The notes beneath the pieces were generated by a model, which was not told where the DNA came from, did not search any database, and saw only the letters and a list, made by a program, of their open reading frames with translations. This document shows, in pieces, positions 15,485 through 63,330 of a DNA stretch of 64,000 nucleotides (positions within the stretch are counted from its first letter, which is position 1; each line of letters starts with the position of its first letter). This DNA comes from Catillopecten margaritatus gill symbiont (lineage in GTDB: Bacteria > Pseudomonadota > Gammaproteobacteria > PS1 > Pseudothioglobaceae): assembly GCA_037956075.1 (NCBI GenBank), contig CP138327.1, positions 1,240,001 through 1,304,000 on the forward strand. Reading direction: 5' to 3'. The translations under genes were made by a program, and so were the position numbers.

Positions 15485-16082
15485 AATTTGTGGATTTACC
15501 AATGCAGAGAATGCACGAGCCGCATCGCTTCTCGGTATAGATGCTGTCGGTTTGGTGTTTTACGATAAATCGCCACGGTGTGTGGAAGTGGCAACGGCGG
15601 TGGAAATTATCAATGCGTTGCCGCCGTTTGTGAATCGTGTGGGGTTGTTTGTGAATGCGGATTCGGATTTTATTGATGAAATATTGTGCGAGGTGCCACT
15701 CGATACTTTGCAGTTTCATGGCGATGAATCTCCAGCGGAATGTGGTCAATATGCGATGCCGTTTATCAAGGCTTTGCGAGTAACTGCGGAAATGGATATT
15801 GCCAAAATGGCACAGGAATATCATCAAGCCAGCGGATTATTATTGGATGCTTTTCACGAAGAAGCGTATGGTGGCACGGGCAATCAATTTGACTGGGGAT
15901 TGGCAAAAGTTGAGATTGATTTACCGATTATTTTGGCAGGCGGTTTGAATCCTGAGACGGTTTTTAATGCCGTTAAACAAGTGAATCCGTATGCACTGGA
16001 TGTGTCGAGTGGTGTGGAAAGTTCAAAGGGAATTAAAGATATGAACAAGGTTAAACATTTTATCCAACAAGTGAAATTATGA
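15468..16082 (+). CDS. trpF: Phosphoribosylanthranilate isomerase
   Basis: Third step of the tryptophan pathway after anthranilate formation. The 204-residue TIM barrel starts with [13 protein letters not shown], including the catalytic Cys, followed by [10 protein letters not shown], the LQFHGDE strand, and the catalytic Asp in LLLDAF; GGLNPE and DVSSGVE close the phosphate-binding site. It overlaps the preceding hypothetical gene by 17 bases and trpB by 4, so the operon is translationally coupled. Confidence 0.97.
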
Positions 16083-17284
16083 GTGATTACAATTTACCCA
16101 ATGATAAGGGGCATTTCGAAGAATTTGGTGGTGTTTTTATTGCAGAAACACTAATGGCAGCTGTGACTGAATTGAAAGAGTCCTATGAAAAGTATAAAGA
16201 TGATGTAGATTTTTTGGCAGAATTTAAAGACGACCTTAAGCATTATGTGGGGCGTGAAACCCCACTTTATCATGCGAAAAATCTCAGTGAAAAGTTGGGT
16301 GGGGCGCAGATTTATCTAAAACGCGAAGACCTTAATCACACGGGTGCGCATAAAGTCAATAATGCGATTGGGCAAATGCTATTAGCAAAACGCATGGGTA
16401 AAACACGCATTATTGCTGAAACAGGTGCAGGGCAGCATGGCGTAGCGACGGCGACGGTGGCGGCGCGTTTGGGTTTGGAATGTGTGATTTATATGGGTGA
16501 AGTTGATGTGGCGCGTCAAGCATTAAATGTATTCCGTATGAAACTTTTGGGAGCAACCGTTGTGCCCGTCACTTCGGGCTCGAAAACGCTGAAAGATGCG
16601 TTGAACGAGGCGATGCGTGATTGGGTAACAAATATCGATGACACTTTTTATATCATCGGCACCGTGGCTGGACCACATCCTTATCCGATGATGGTGCGTG
16701 ATTTTCAAAGCGTTATTGGCAAGGAAGCCAAGGCACAATTTGCCGAACAAGTCGGTGGCTTGCCAGATGCTTTGGTGGCTTGCGTGGGCGGTGGCTCAAA
16801 TGCGATTGGCTTATTCCACGAATTTATTGGTGATAAATCTGTTGAAATTTATGGCGTGGAAGCGGCAGGACATGGTATAGAAAAAGGCCCAACCGCACAC
16901 GCAGCACCTCTTTGTGCTGGTAGCATCGGCGTCCTACACGGCAATCGTACTTATTTAATGGAAGATGAAAATGGGCAGATTATCGAAGGGCATTCAATCA
17001 GTGCAGGACTAGATTACCCAGGTGTTGGTCCTGAGCATGCGTATTTAAAAGACAGTGGTCGTGCGCAATATGTGGCAATTACCGATAAAGAAGCCTTAGA
17101 TGCATTTCACACACTCACCCGAACTGAAGGGATTTTGCCTGCGTTGGAATCCTCACATGCCATTGCTTATGGCATCAAACTTGCTCAAGAAATGGGTAAG
17201 GATAAGCATATTATTGTCAACCTATCGGGGCGTGGCGATAAAGATATTCACACGGTTGCTGAAATTGAAGGGATTGAGTTTTAA
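16079..17284 (+). CDS. trpB: Tryptophan synthase beta chain
   Basis: PLP enzyme that joins indole and serine to make tryptophan, working with TrpA. The 401-residue protein has the PLP-lysine motif [21 protein letters not shown]-like segment (AETGAGQHG), and the phosphate-binding GGGSNAIG. Usual gammaproteobacterial order would put trpA directly behind it; here trpA lies 6 kb away beyond glmU, rpmE, hemE and an inserted cassette. A structured repeat follows the stop codon. Confidence 0.98.
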
Positions 17285-17290
17285 TACTTT

Positions 17291-17479
17291 AGGGCACCCC
17301 CAAAAACCCCAGCACAATTTATACCCCTCAAGGGGGTACTGAAAAGAGTGAAACACATAAAACAGCCCCTTTCCCGCCTAAAAAGGCGTCAAATAGCTGG
17401 CTATTCTCCTTATTTTTAGGCAGAAAATGGACTATTTTCTGTATTCCCTAAATCGCACTGGGGTTTCTGGAGGCGCCCT
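17291..17479. repeat. Structured hairpin repeat, family copy B
   Basis: Bounded by a 22-base imperfect inverted repeat (17291-17312 with 17458-17479). Inside are a TACCCC/GGGGTA hairpin (about 17322-17338), a stem GCCTAAAAA (17376-17384) with TTTTTAGGC (17413-17421), a nested AATAGC-TG-GCTATT hairpin (17392-17405), and a CAGAAAAT/ATTTTCTG hairpin (17421-17441). A second copy lies between mazE and mazF at 46371-46552. It overlaps the 3' end of the downstream MFS gene, whose last residues it encodes. Confidence 0.8.
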
Positions 17480-18638
17480 TTAATTTTAAGGAACGCCACA
17501 AAATAATTAATTGCATTATCAGTAAAGGGACTGTTGATAATAAGACGATTTCCCAACCAAAACCAAATACTAGCCATCCAGCAGATAGGGATGCGATTGC
17601 TTGTAGTCCGAAAATTAAAAAGTCATTGACTGATTGCACTTTGAATTTTTCCGATTCGTTGTAGGATTGCGGCAATAAACTGGTGCCGCCGATGAATAAG
17701 AAATTCCAACCCAATCCCAATAAAACGAGTGCCACCCAGTAATTCATGAGTGCATGCGATGAAAAGGCGATAGCAATGCAAATAAAGAAAAACAAAACAC
17801 CTGCCAACATCATTTTTCTAAGCCCAAAATATTTGACGACGATTGGCGTGAATAACGAAGGCAAAAACATTGCAATGACATGCGATTGGATAACAAATTT
17901 GGTGTGCTCTAAGGAAAAGCCATCTATCACATGCATGCTCATCGGCGTGGCAGTCATAATGTAACTCATTACGATATACCCCACAGCAGCGCTTGACATA
18001 GCAACAATAAAAATCGGTTGCTTGATAATTTGTGACAAACTTCTGCTAGATACTACTTGCTCTTTCTCGGTAGTTTGAACGGGTTGATAAAACCATAACA
18101 AAACAAATGCAATGACAAAACACCCACTTAGCAAAACAAAAGAACCCACAAATTCAGTGGAAAATAAATGCATACCTGCGGTTGCCAACTCAGGGCCAAG
18201 AAAAGCGGAAATCAAACCCCCACTCAAAATAACAGAAGTGGCTGTTGCACTTAAATTTTTATCAACGCTTTCGATAGCGGCAAACCTAAATTGATTCATC
18301 GTTGCCGTGGTAACGCCAAATAAAAAACTGGATAAGCAAAATAAATAAAAAGACTGGGTTTGCAATGCTGTGATTGCTAAATAAATATTTAGCAGGGTAA
18401 AAATACAAACACCAAGAAAGGTTTTATGCCTGCCAATAATAGCCATAATACGGTTGATAGGCATAATGCCACTAGCAGTACCGACGACCAATAATGCCAC
18501 AGGTAGTGTCGATAAACTTTTGCTAGGTGCCAAGGCATTGCCGATGATGCCGCCGATAAAAATCACAAAAACACTGAGCGACATAAACAATGCCAAGCTG
18601 CTTGTTAATAGCCAAACATTACGAGGTAAAGAATACAT
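17448..18638 (-). CDS. Major facilitator superfamily transporter
   Basis: A 396-residue integral membrane protein with about 12 hydrophobic helices and an MFS-like loop (MPINRIMAIIGRHKTF) between helices 2 and 3. Substrate unknown; no motif points to a specific family beyond general drug or sugar-type MFS. The start overlaps the glmU stop as TAATG, so it is coupled to glmU. The last roughly ten codons lie within a dispersed structured repeat, so the original C-terminus may have been altered. Confidence 0.85.
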   Translation of the reverse strand: MYSLPRNVWLLTSSLALFMSLSVFVIFIGGIIGNALAPSKSLSTLPVALLVVGTASGIMPINRIMAIIGRHKTFLGVCIFTLLNIYLAITALQTQSFYLFCLSSFLFGVTTATMNQFRFAAIESVDKNLSATATSVILSGGLISAFLGPELATAGMHLFSTEFVGSFVLLSGCFVIAFVLLWFYQPVQTTEKEQVVSSRSLSQIIKQPIFIVAMSSAAVGYIVMSYIMTATPMSMHVIDGFSLEHTKFVIQSHVIAMFLPSLFTPIVVKYFGLRKMMLAGVLFFFICIAIAFSSHALMNYWVALVLLGLGWNFLFIGGTSLLPQSYNESEKFKVQSVNDFLIFGLQAIASLSAGWLVFGFGWEIVLLSTVPLLIMQLIILWRSLKLKGASRNPSAI

Positions 18639-44351: not shown

Positions 44352-44514
44352 GAGACTCCTGCATTGGGTATGAATACCGCCTAAAAGCCAACTTTCATCC
44401 ATTTGATAACTTTTACAAAACCTGTATTAACCCTGCTAGGACTGGCTTTGTAAAAATTACCAACTGAATAAAATTTAACTTTTATCCGGTATCCATACCC
44501 AATGCAGGAATCTC
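44352..44514. mobile_element. MITE-like element with terminal inverted repeats and 5-bp target duplication
   Basis: The ends form a 28-base inverted repeat with two mismatches: GAGACTCCTGCATTGGGTAT... from 44352 pairs with the complement of the sequence ending at 44514. A direct repeat ATTAA flanks the element on both sides (44347-44351 and 44515-44519), as expected for a 5-bp target-site duplication. The 163-base body carries a second inverted repeat (ACTTTTACAAAACC with GGCTTTGTAAAAATT) and no open frame. It makes up about half of the 312-base gap from 44271 to 44582; the rest is AT-rich and holds the brnT promoter. Confidence 0.8.
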
Positions 44515-46125: not shown

Positions 46126-46377
46126 ATGCGTATAGAAAGCAGGGTGCAAAAATGGGGTAATGGCTTAGCAATAAGAATGTCGGGTGCATTGAGGACGATA
46201 CCCAATCTTAAAGAGGGGGATATTCTTTCTATTGAGGTTAAAGAGGATGGGTTTAGTGCCATTAAATCTAAAAAGAAAAAATGGAGCGAGGCAGAATTAT
46301 TGTTAGGAATGGACAGCAATAATGCCCACGCTGATTTAGCCGTTGATTTACTCCCAAGTGAATATGGGGACTGTTGA
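46126..46377 (+). CDS. MazE-like AbrB-family antitoxin
   Basis: An 83-residue protein with an N-terminal swapped-hairpin domain (RVQKWGNGLAIRMS, LKEGDILSIEV) and an acidic C-terminal tail, as in MazE/ChpBI antitoxins. It should bind both the palindrome upstream and the toxin encoded behind it. Normally the toxin gene follows with a few bases or an overlap; here 181 bases with a structured repeat lie between the two genes. Confidence 0.85.
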   Translation: MRIESRVQKWGNGLAIRMSGALRTIPNLKEGDILSIEVKEDGFSAIKSKKKKWSEAELLLGMDSNNAHADLAVDLLPSEYGDC

Positions 46378-46552
46378 ATATTGAAAGCACAACTTATGAA
46401 ATACATAAAACAGCCCCTTTCTAGCGCCACACAGCAGTCCTCTAGGAGGGTTTACCCAAAAAGGCGTCAAATAGCTGGCTATTCTCCTCATTTTTGGGTA
46501 AAAAATGCACTATTTTCTGCATTCCCTAAGTCGCACTCTCAACATTCAACAG
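46371..46552. repeat. Structured hairpin repeat, family copy C, inside a mazEF operon
   Basis: The outer ends are a 14-base inverted repeat (CTGTTGAATATTGA at 46371 with TCAACATTCAACAG ending at 46552), extended by ATATGGGG/CCCCATAT outside. Inside, TACCCAAAAA (46453-46462) pairs with TTTTTGGGTA (46491-46500) around the nested AATAGC-TG-GCTATT (46470-46483). The loop is identical to that in the repeat at 17291-17479, while the stem arms differ but remain complementary. It separates mazE from mazF. Confidence 0.8.
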
Positions 46553-46558
46553 CCCCAT

Positions 46559-46894
46559 ATGAATAAATATATCCCCGATAGAGCCGATATTATTTGGCTT
46601 GATTTTGAGCCGACAAAAGGCAAAGAAATTGGCAAATATCGCCCCGCATTAATATTATCCTCTAAAGAATATGCACAAAAAACGGGGTTAATTATTTGCT
46701 CACCCATCAGCACTAGCATTCGTGGCGGTGCAACAGAAGTGCTTATTGATGGATTGGATAATCCTAGTGTTGTCGCGGCATCTATTGTCAATACGCTGAG
46801 TTACAAAAACAGAAAAGCGAAATTAATTACCAAGTCCAGTCAAAGCGTAGTTAATGAAGTTTTGGCTAGATTATTACCTTTAATGGGCGGATAA
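46559..46894 (+). CDS. MazF/PemK-like endoribonuclease toxin
   Basis: A 111-residue protein starting at the ATG at 46559 (MNKYIPDRADIIWLDFEP), the family N-terminus with the conserved GDIxWxDF-type strand and KGKEIGKYRPALILS, followed by CSPIST and the C-terminal LARLLPLMGG. MazF toxins cleave mRNA at short sites. The open frame extends upstream into the repeat but has no family match there. The split from mazE by a repeat may alter the toxin to antitoxin ratio. Confidence 0.88.
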   Translation: MNKYIPDRADIIWLDFEPTKGKEIGKYRPALILSSKEYAQKTGLIICSPISTSIRGGATEVLIDGLDNPSVVAASIVNTLSYKNRKAKLITKSSQSVVNEVLARLLPLMGG

Positions 46895-60232: not shown

Positions 60233-60282
60233 CCCAAATCCAAAAATAGAAAATGCAAATCTAACGCCAACCCTCACTACCA

Positions 60283-60332
60283 CAGCAGAAGGTGAATTGG
60301 CTTTAGCCAAGAGAGGCTACCCTGGGGTATTT
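60283..60332 (+). repeat. 50-base copy of the IS3 transposase 5' region
   Basis: These 50 bases (from CAGCAGAAGGTGAATTGG to GGGGTATTT) are identical to the minus-strand sequence 63233-63184 inside the IS3-family element, in inverted orientation. No other part of the IS is recognisable next to it. The copy contains a 39-base segment that also looks like an insertion within the transposase frame. No gene remains between 60233 and 60438. Confidence 0.9.
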
Positions 60333-60394
60333 CAAAGTGGAACCACTGGGTGGCACTAAGATTTTTTTTAAAACACTGTGATAGCAATGATTAA

Positions 60395-62016: not shown

Positions 62017-63330
62017 TACCCCAAAACTTCTGACAACTTTTTAAATTTTCTTATATAGAAGCCTTCTTCTTTTTCTGGTTCAATTCTACACTTTCTTGAT
62101 ACACATTCATTGGTTTTTTATATTCCAATGTCTCGTGGAATCTTCGATGATTATAGAACTCAATATAATCATCTACATCAGCGACTAGCTCACTAATAGA
62201 TTGATACTCGTTTAAATAAATTCTTTCACATTTGGCACTTCGCCAGAAGCGTTCAATGCAAATGTTATCTGTAGCCCTACCTTTTCCATCCATTGATATT
62301 GTAACGCCTAAATCTTTTAAGCGTTTGGTATGCACTTCACTGGTATATTGAGCACCTTGATCGGTATTAAATATCTCTGGATGTGGGTGTTTATCTAGTG
62401 CATCATTTAATACACCCATTACCAATTGTGTATCCATAGTGTTGGATATTCTATGTGATAATACAGCCTTTGAATGCCAGTCAATAACAGCAGCCATATA
62501 AACCATACCGCCTGCAATCTTGATGTAAGTGATGTCTGTAGACCACACTTGATTAGCCTGATTAATATCAAGCCCCTAAGCTTATAACTGTATTTTTTAT
62601 GTGCTTTGATTGGTATTGTAGTATGGAGTGATTTAACTGCCAATACTGCCTTTAATCCTAACTCTTGGCGATAGCGTGCAACGGTGTTTAAACTGACTTT
62701 GCAACCCTCTTCAAGTAATTGTTGATGAACTTTTTTTTCACCATAGATGGGTATTTGTTCAAACACTTTGGTAATGTGTTTTTTAATTGTTTGCTTGGTG
62801 TGATTGACACTTGACTTGTAATAAAGCCCACTTCTGTTGACGCCTAACAATTGACATTGATGATTAACCGATAATAAGGATGGCTTGAGGTCAACTAATT
62901 GTTTGAGATTAGATGAGCCCAAGCTGACGAGCTTTTTTGATAACCACTCCTTTTCTACAGTTACCTTGCCAACGAGTGTAGTTAAGCGCTCATTTTGCTT
63001 TTGTGATTTAATAAGCGCTTCTTTGTATTCTTTGACTGCTTTTGATGGTTCCATAGCAATCTCTGCGTTGGCAAGGAAGGTCTTCTTCCAGTTTGCTAAA
63101 TTCTGTGGAAGAATATTGTGTTTGCTGGCAATCTGTGCTAAAGTGCTTTCATTTTGTAATAACTCAAGCACTAATTTTGTTTTAAATACCCCAGGGTAGC
63201 CTCTCTTGGCTAAAGCCAATTCACCTTCTGCTGAGGTGTATTTGGTTCGTTTTTTACTCCGATTTTTTTTGTTTAGTTTAACTTGTTCGAAATAAGAAAG
63301 TTTAGAATGTTGTCTGAAATTGTTGGGGTA
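62017..63330 (-). mobile_element. IS3-family insertion sequence, decayed
   Basis: The element is bounded by imperfect terminal inverted repeats of about 38 bases: TACCCCAAAACTTCTGACAA (from 62017) and the complement of TTGTCTGAAATTGTTGGGGTA (ending 63330). The transposase is disrupted (see next entry). I could not see a clear target-site duplication. It sits between the aldehyde dehydrogenase gene and its divergent AraC-type regulator and so breaks their shared control region. Confidence 0.85.
62051..63219 (-). pseudogene. IS3-family transposase, frameshifted
   Basis: The N-terminal OrfA part (TLAQIASKHNILPQNLANWKK) and OrfB part (GVNRSGLYYK, YGEKKVHQQL) share one frame up to RG near 62575, where a one-base change at a GGGG run shifts the frame; the rest continues as LDINQANQVWSTDITYI with the DDE catalytic residues (WSTDIT, NTDQGA, ERFWRS). 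The frame before the ATG at 63219 is open for about 15 codons and reads KRTKYTSAE without a start codon, then 13 residues (GELALAKRGYPGV) that break the usual YTSAEFKTK join. So start and frame are both damaged; a programmed shift is possible but less likely. Confidence 0.8.

Follow-up and report, generated by a model that had tools for sequence, protein, structure and literature searches.

The two repeats found in the window (the whole stretch of 64,000 nt that was analysed, from the genome of the Catillopecten margaritatus gill symbiont) are two copies of a non-coding MITE, the whole length of which forms one imperfect hairpin of about 75 bp. Our overall explanation, to which we assign a probability of roughly 0.8, is that this MITE has a hairpin core, has swapped its TIRs and transposases, keeps its pairing on one strand and survives outside the mRNA of its neighbours. 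The features of the two copies and of the adjoining genes are summarised in Table 1.

Table 1. Features of the two MITE copies and their neighbouring genes in the window
Feature	Position	Strand	Remarks
MITE copy 1, type A, 187 bp	17292..17478	-	minus is the strongly folding strand
Left TSD TTTA, copy 1	17288..17291		4-bp TSD in line with the type A statistics
Right TSD TTTA, copy 1	17479..17482		
Left TIR type A, GGGCACCCCCAAAAACCCCAG, copy 1	17292..17312	+	
Right TIR type A, GGGCGCCTCCAGAAACCCCAG on minus, copy 1	17458..17478	-	
27-nt segment, copy 1	17322..17348	+	only in some type A copies; absent in L002 and L005
Covarying stem arm GCCTAAAAA, copy 1	17376..17384		
Covarying stem arm TTTTTAGGC, copy 1	17413..17421		
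MITE copy 2, type B, 190 bp	46367..46556	-	between mazE-like and mazF-like genes
Left TSD ATATG, copy 2	46362..46366		ATATG occurs once in the L334 and L335 empty sites
Right TSD ATATG, copy 2	46557..46561		contains the mazF ATG
Left TIR type B, GGGACTGTTGAATATTGAAAG, copy 2	46367..46387	+	
Right TIR type B, GGGGCTGTTGAATGTTGAGAG on minus, copy 2	46536..46556	-	
30-nt internal insert, copy 2	46421..46450		also found elsewhere within G022, G024 and G046 copies
Covarying stem arm TACCCAAAAA, copy 2	46453..46462		
Covarying stem arm TTTTTGGGTA, copy 2	46491..46500		
mazE-like antitoxin gene	46126..46377	+	PF04014, E = 2.3e-4, under its gathering score
mazF/pemK-like toxin gene	46559..46894	+	PF02452, E = 8.7e-20; original ATG within the TSD
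MFS transporter gene	17448..18638	-	PF07690; stop codon within MITE copy 1
PLP-dependent enzyme gene, probably trpB (by homology)	16079..17284	+	PF00291; ends 7 bp before MITE copy 1

Both repeat copies described in the sequence-only reading are present and share a direct repeat of 83 nt with an identity of 90%. Their loop region is identical, as had been stated, and their stem arms differ between the copies while pairing within each of them (GCCTAAAAA with TTTTTAGGC in copy 1 and TACCCAAAAA with TTTTTGGGTA in copy 2). In both copies, these arms turned out to be the inner part of a single hairpin that covers the whole element. A local ATTTTCTG hairpin had been proposed for both copies, but was found in copy 1 only, while ATTTTCTG pairs with the opposite arm in copy 2. 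The folding energy of copy 1 is -109 kcal/mol on the minus strand compared to -68 kcal/mol on the plus strand. Without internal inserts the MITE is about 160 nt in length, and its core hairpin accounts for about 120 nt. An insert of about 30 nt (CCCTCCTAGAGGACTGCTGTGTGGCGCTAG or relatives thereof) occupies varying positions among copies and genomes (L072, L129, L120, L122, L123) and is possibly a tiny mobile unit. On the folding strand, a short ORF (MQKIVHFLPKNEENSQLFDEFLGKKRAVLCIS) was rejected as a coding sequence; its three codon positions vary equally.

A DNA search of the 1.54-Mb host genome yielded about 18 copies or fragments, and 14 matches have E values of 1e-49 to 1e-24, far outside what chance would give, with one copy that is split by a nested insertion counted twice. 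The element is short, non-coding, multicopy and dispersed, as is typical for MITEs. Searches with the TIR patterns gave 15 and 20 matches, compared to none for the same patterns read backwards as a control. Two forms with a common core occur in the host genome, one with type A ends (GGGCACCCCCARAAACCCCAG) and one with type B ends (GGGACTGTTGAATRTTGARAG). Two copies, L007 (G000, 359266-359626) and L014 (G000, 1020014-1020368), are interrupted by a MITE of a different, 163-bp family. A covariance model built from 11 copies found matches in 23 further genomes, all belonging to the same family apart from one doubtful match outside it. Named matches in the databases were Ca. Thioglobus pontius and Ca. 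Ruthturnera, which places the MITE in the Thioglobaceae, marine bacteria that oxidise sulfur and in which it is common. Phage records, plasmid records and viral contigs contained no matches to the MITE.

The presumed mobility of the repeats is borne out by TSDs and empty sites, and the TIRs have a length of about 20 bp. At the empty site of copy 2, seen in genomes G002 and G007 (L334 and L335), the joined mazEF flanks align without interruption and contain ATATG only once (GAATATGAATAA). At this site, the stop codon of mazE and the start codon of mazF overlap, which shows that copy 2 inserted into the mazE/mazF overlap. After the insertion, the duplicated ATATG preserves the ATG of mazF, and the stop codon of the mazE-like gene (TGA, 46375-46377) is provided by the MITE. 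The element has hence separated an overlapping gene pair by means of its own stop codon and a duplicated ATG. In the split MazEF-like pair (46126-46894) the translational coupling of mazF may be lost, or an in-frame ATG at 46505, within copy 2, may serve as an alternative mazF start. Clean empty sites were obtained for copy 2 only; for copy 1 none was found in the relatives checked, in which the flanking genes are differently spaced or arranged.

The outer ends of the two copies had been described as unrelated inverted repeats. They are indeed inverted and differ in sequence, but this description is incomplete, since they represent swapped TIRs flanked by TSDs of 4 or 5 bp. In other genomes, one and the same core was found with ends of types A, B and C (type C being GAGACCACTGCATTAACCCAG) and with some less frequent ones, amounting to at least three TIR types. 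The swap affects both sides and occurs at one border, between AG and the following TGCG... The TSD length tracks the TIR type, with 4 bp for type A and 5 bp for types B and C. For type A, an exact TSD at k = 4 was present in 20 of 26 copies (93% identity; mean of 2.8 exact TSDs after shuffling). For types B and C, TSD identity peaks at k = 5 (mean 0.80 and 0.59, respectively) and not at k = 4, with background values elsewhere. These sequence comparisons suggest that the same core adopted different TIRs on both ends, with a matching change in TSD length. The evidence for TIR switching is that cores are shared; a tree of these cores, based on 120 columns, has poor resolution and requires few switches.

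Given one core with different end sequences, the forms were probably moved by different enzymes. In relatives, transposases with a PF01609 domain are flanked by related ends. At L230 of G022 (positions 883-2105), the ends are type B-like (GGGACTGTTGAA/GGGGTTGTTGAA) with a 12-bp match, and the TSD is imperfect (ATCAT/ATCGA). Loci L224 and L229 of G006 have the ends GAGACCTTTGCAT, the latter with the TSD AATAA, while L223 of G011 has the ends AAGACCCCTGCAT and the TSD TATTG. The IS ends at these three loci (GAGACC..TGCAT or AAGACC..TGCAT) resemble type C, and the type C relatives have 12 of 15 TIR positions alike and a 5-bp TSD. Loci L223 and L224 score above the cut-off of NCBIfam IS5_4. Types B and C thus have candidate movers in IS5-like insertion sequences, the TIRs of which match or resemble theirs. 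No partner of type A was found among the insertion sequences and transposases in the relatives searched, and none of the IS elements seen shares more than the TIR with the MITE. Each end type would likely be moved in trans by a different cut-and-paste transposase of the DDE type. An autonomous element with whole type A, B or C TIRs was considered and rejected; the mate-less TIR matches examined adjoin ordinary genes.

The mover initially suggested was a REP-associated tyrosine transposase, which fits neither the TSDs nor the symmetric TIRs, whereas DDE (IS5-like) transposases are candidates. An element of the REP/REPIN type, moved as ssDNA by such a Y1 transposase, would account for the conservation of the hairpin and for the strand asymmetry, and 12 matches to Y1_Tnp (PF01797) are present in the host genome. 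However, the clear TSDs contradict this explanation, the TIRs are identical at both ends and the ends are common with DDE insertion sequences, which makes it highly improbable. To our knowledge, Y1 insertions (IS200/IS605, RAYT) leave no TSD. The lack of a TSD and the asymmetric Y1-type ends that characterise REP/RAYT elements were not observed here.

Collecting the copies with a covariance model, as the sequence-only reading had proposed, confirmed that the arms covary and supported the folding. In 11 full-length copies, 96.7% of the pair cells are paired, compared to 88.2% after shuffling and 40-53% after sliding. Cells changed on both sides numbered 82 (36 when shuffled), and 20 pairs are changed on both sides in these copies. 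Among 26 lineage consensuses, 20 of 49 core pairs show at least two Watson-Crick types. Intermediates are mostly G.U on the minus strand of the window (910 G.U compared to 168 A.C over all pairs), and in 77 of 78 copies the better fold is that of the minus strand (mean -69 vs -43 kcal/mol). Pairing of the TIRs follows from the fact that the ends must match.

The strong covariation and the consistent folding strand would also be expected of a structured RNA gene or cis-regulatory RNA that is kept for the host, with every copy selected to fold. Several observations argue against it: the copies reside at different loci, with TSDs, and several of the close relatives lack them; at most tandem sites the folding strand runs antisense to the genes; and private mutations are about equally pairing and non-pairing. 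In addition, the MITE is without an Rfam match at the gathering score; in the window, cmscan detected only a tRNA, and weak matches near the element were mostly to microRNA hairpin models far under the cut-off. We therefore regard a host RNA as improbable.

The mutations private to single copies (72 to G.U and 48 to A.C) show no clear bias; taken as a proxy for the mutation process, they predict 52% G.U. Post-insertion selection on the structure was rejected on the basis of these private mutations. Among the fixed core pairs, 10 have a majority of G.U and none a majority of A.C (p = 0.0014 with private mutation rates taken as symmetric; since common descent accounts for the sharing of fixed pairs, independent events are few). 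The compensatory changes had been taken as a sign that folding is selected. The covariation holds, but resident copies acquire non-pairing changes at an approximately neutral rate. A folding constraint, if any, thus acts on source copies rather than on each resident copy, since selection among source copies fits both the G.U-biased fixed pairs and the unbiased private changes.

Alternatively, selection on folding may be absent altogether, with a palindrome that was perfect at its single origin and has been decaying since, and with a strand bias that stems from mutation or from a founder effect. This is consistent with the near-neutral decay of resident copies, with transposase recognition as sufficient reason for the symmetry of the TIRs, and with founding events that are few and shared by descent. 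Against it stand the fixed pairs, which deviate from the predicted G.U share, and the diversity of Watson-Crick types in the core pairs. Moreover, a transcription- or replication-linked G+T skew would affect the opposite strand, because the folding strand is antisense. We consider this alternative fairly unlikely. Under selection among source copies, multiplying lineages would keep the minus-strand pairing by compensatory and G.U changes, which we hold with moderate confidence.

With respect to tandem neighbours, the folding strand is antisense at 31 sites and sense at 6 (p = 4e-5, codon-usage gene calls with orthologous insertions merged); the remaining sites are convergent (14) or divergent (4). 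Simpler ORF-based gene calling resulted in 39 antisense and 10 sense sites. The likeliest cause of this bias is the harm done by a strong hairpin in mRNA. Copies would survive mostly where the strong hairpin stays out of the mRNA of a neighbour, probably because an RNA hairpin of 75 bp would be a target of RNase III or an obstacle to transcription and translation. The orientation bias and the one-sided mismatches could instead stem from replication, if hairpins on the template of the lagging strand are avoided. A few G000 copies suggest the same direction, and both causes make coinciding predictions since genes tend to be co-directional with replication. The GC skew, sampled in three genomes that are too rearranged and gene-confounded to separate the effect of replication direction, does not tell the two causes apart, and we judge the replication-based cause to be somewhat unlikely.

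Two other MITE families of about 160 bp in the genome likewise show one-strand asymmetry, with an antisense to sense ratio of 11:3. A copy of the 163-bp family is located in the window at 44352-44514, with the ends GAGACTCCTGCATTGGGTATG.../GAGACCCCTGCATTG and a full-length hairpin (-96 vs -59 kcal/mol for the two strands). The 161-bp family is represented by a single end without mismatches (GAGACCTTTGCATAA) at about 59486. Both families (L193-L222, L399-L418, G000) seemingly have the apical core TCCTAGCARGGYTAA in common while their TIRs differ, so that end swapping may extend beyond the MITE family described here. The window also contains an inverted repeat of 100 nt (60237-60336 and 63180-63279; 78% complementary, 2.8 kb apart).

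Taken together, the element would be a foldback of a selfish, 'operon-tolerant' kind that has switched transposases in the course of its history. A more far-reaching version, which we regard as quite doubtful, is that the core repeatedly exchanged both ends together with transposase and TSD length, that one strand was kept folded since folded RNA or ssDNA aids multiplication, and that the paired arms let a new end be copied across by hairpin template switching. Bacterial MITEs are usually viewed as deletion relics bound to one insertion sequence. One core with three end types and two TSD lengths points to non-autonomous elements being able to persist beyond their own transposase when they take on the ends of a different one. 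One-strand pairing and antisense bias in three MITE families lead to the testable proposal that long RNA hairpins limit settlement in operons.

Like REPINs and RAYT-associated REPs, the present repeats are dispersed and palindromic and occur in gammaproteobacteria with Y1 transposases in the genome. They are distinguished from these by TIRs and TSDs, by a much longer single hairpin and by the absence of any sign of Y1-type ends. Transposons of the Tn3 family generate 5-bp target duplications. TIMEs derived from Tn3 (PMC4133298) are also non-autonomous and modular, whereas the TIRs described here are not of the 38-bp Tn3 type and the core is a hairpin. With IS5-family MITEs (NF033581/PF01609) the element has in common a short TSD and, in types B and C, TIRs resembling those of IS5-like elements of the same genera. 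Unlike in IS5-derived MITEs, the core is not IS-derived as far as seen, and the type A ends with their 4-bp TSD are without a partner here.

The closest resemblance is to long-hairpin bacterial MITEs, i.e. units of 100-200 bp, the transcripts of which fold into long stems (PMC2229807; PMC10969869). In the case of ERIC, effects on the mRNA depend on how the element is oriented with respect to the gene (PMC2229807). As in ERIC/IRU, Correia/NEMIS, RUP and QMITE1/2, the element measures 100-200 bp, is non-coding and intergenic, and has TIRs and a long stem. These families appear to differ from it in host group and ends. No description of the present family was found in the literature searched, which does not prove its absence. 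In contrast to the known long-hairpin MITEs, one core is combined here with several TIRs and two TSD lengths, pairing is maintained on one strand, and the orientation bias is strongly antisense. The element is thus a new MITE family of a known kind, that of the long-hairpin bacterial MITEs, with modular ends and one-strand pairing as its unusual characteristics.
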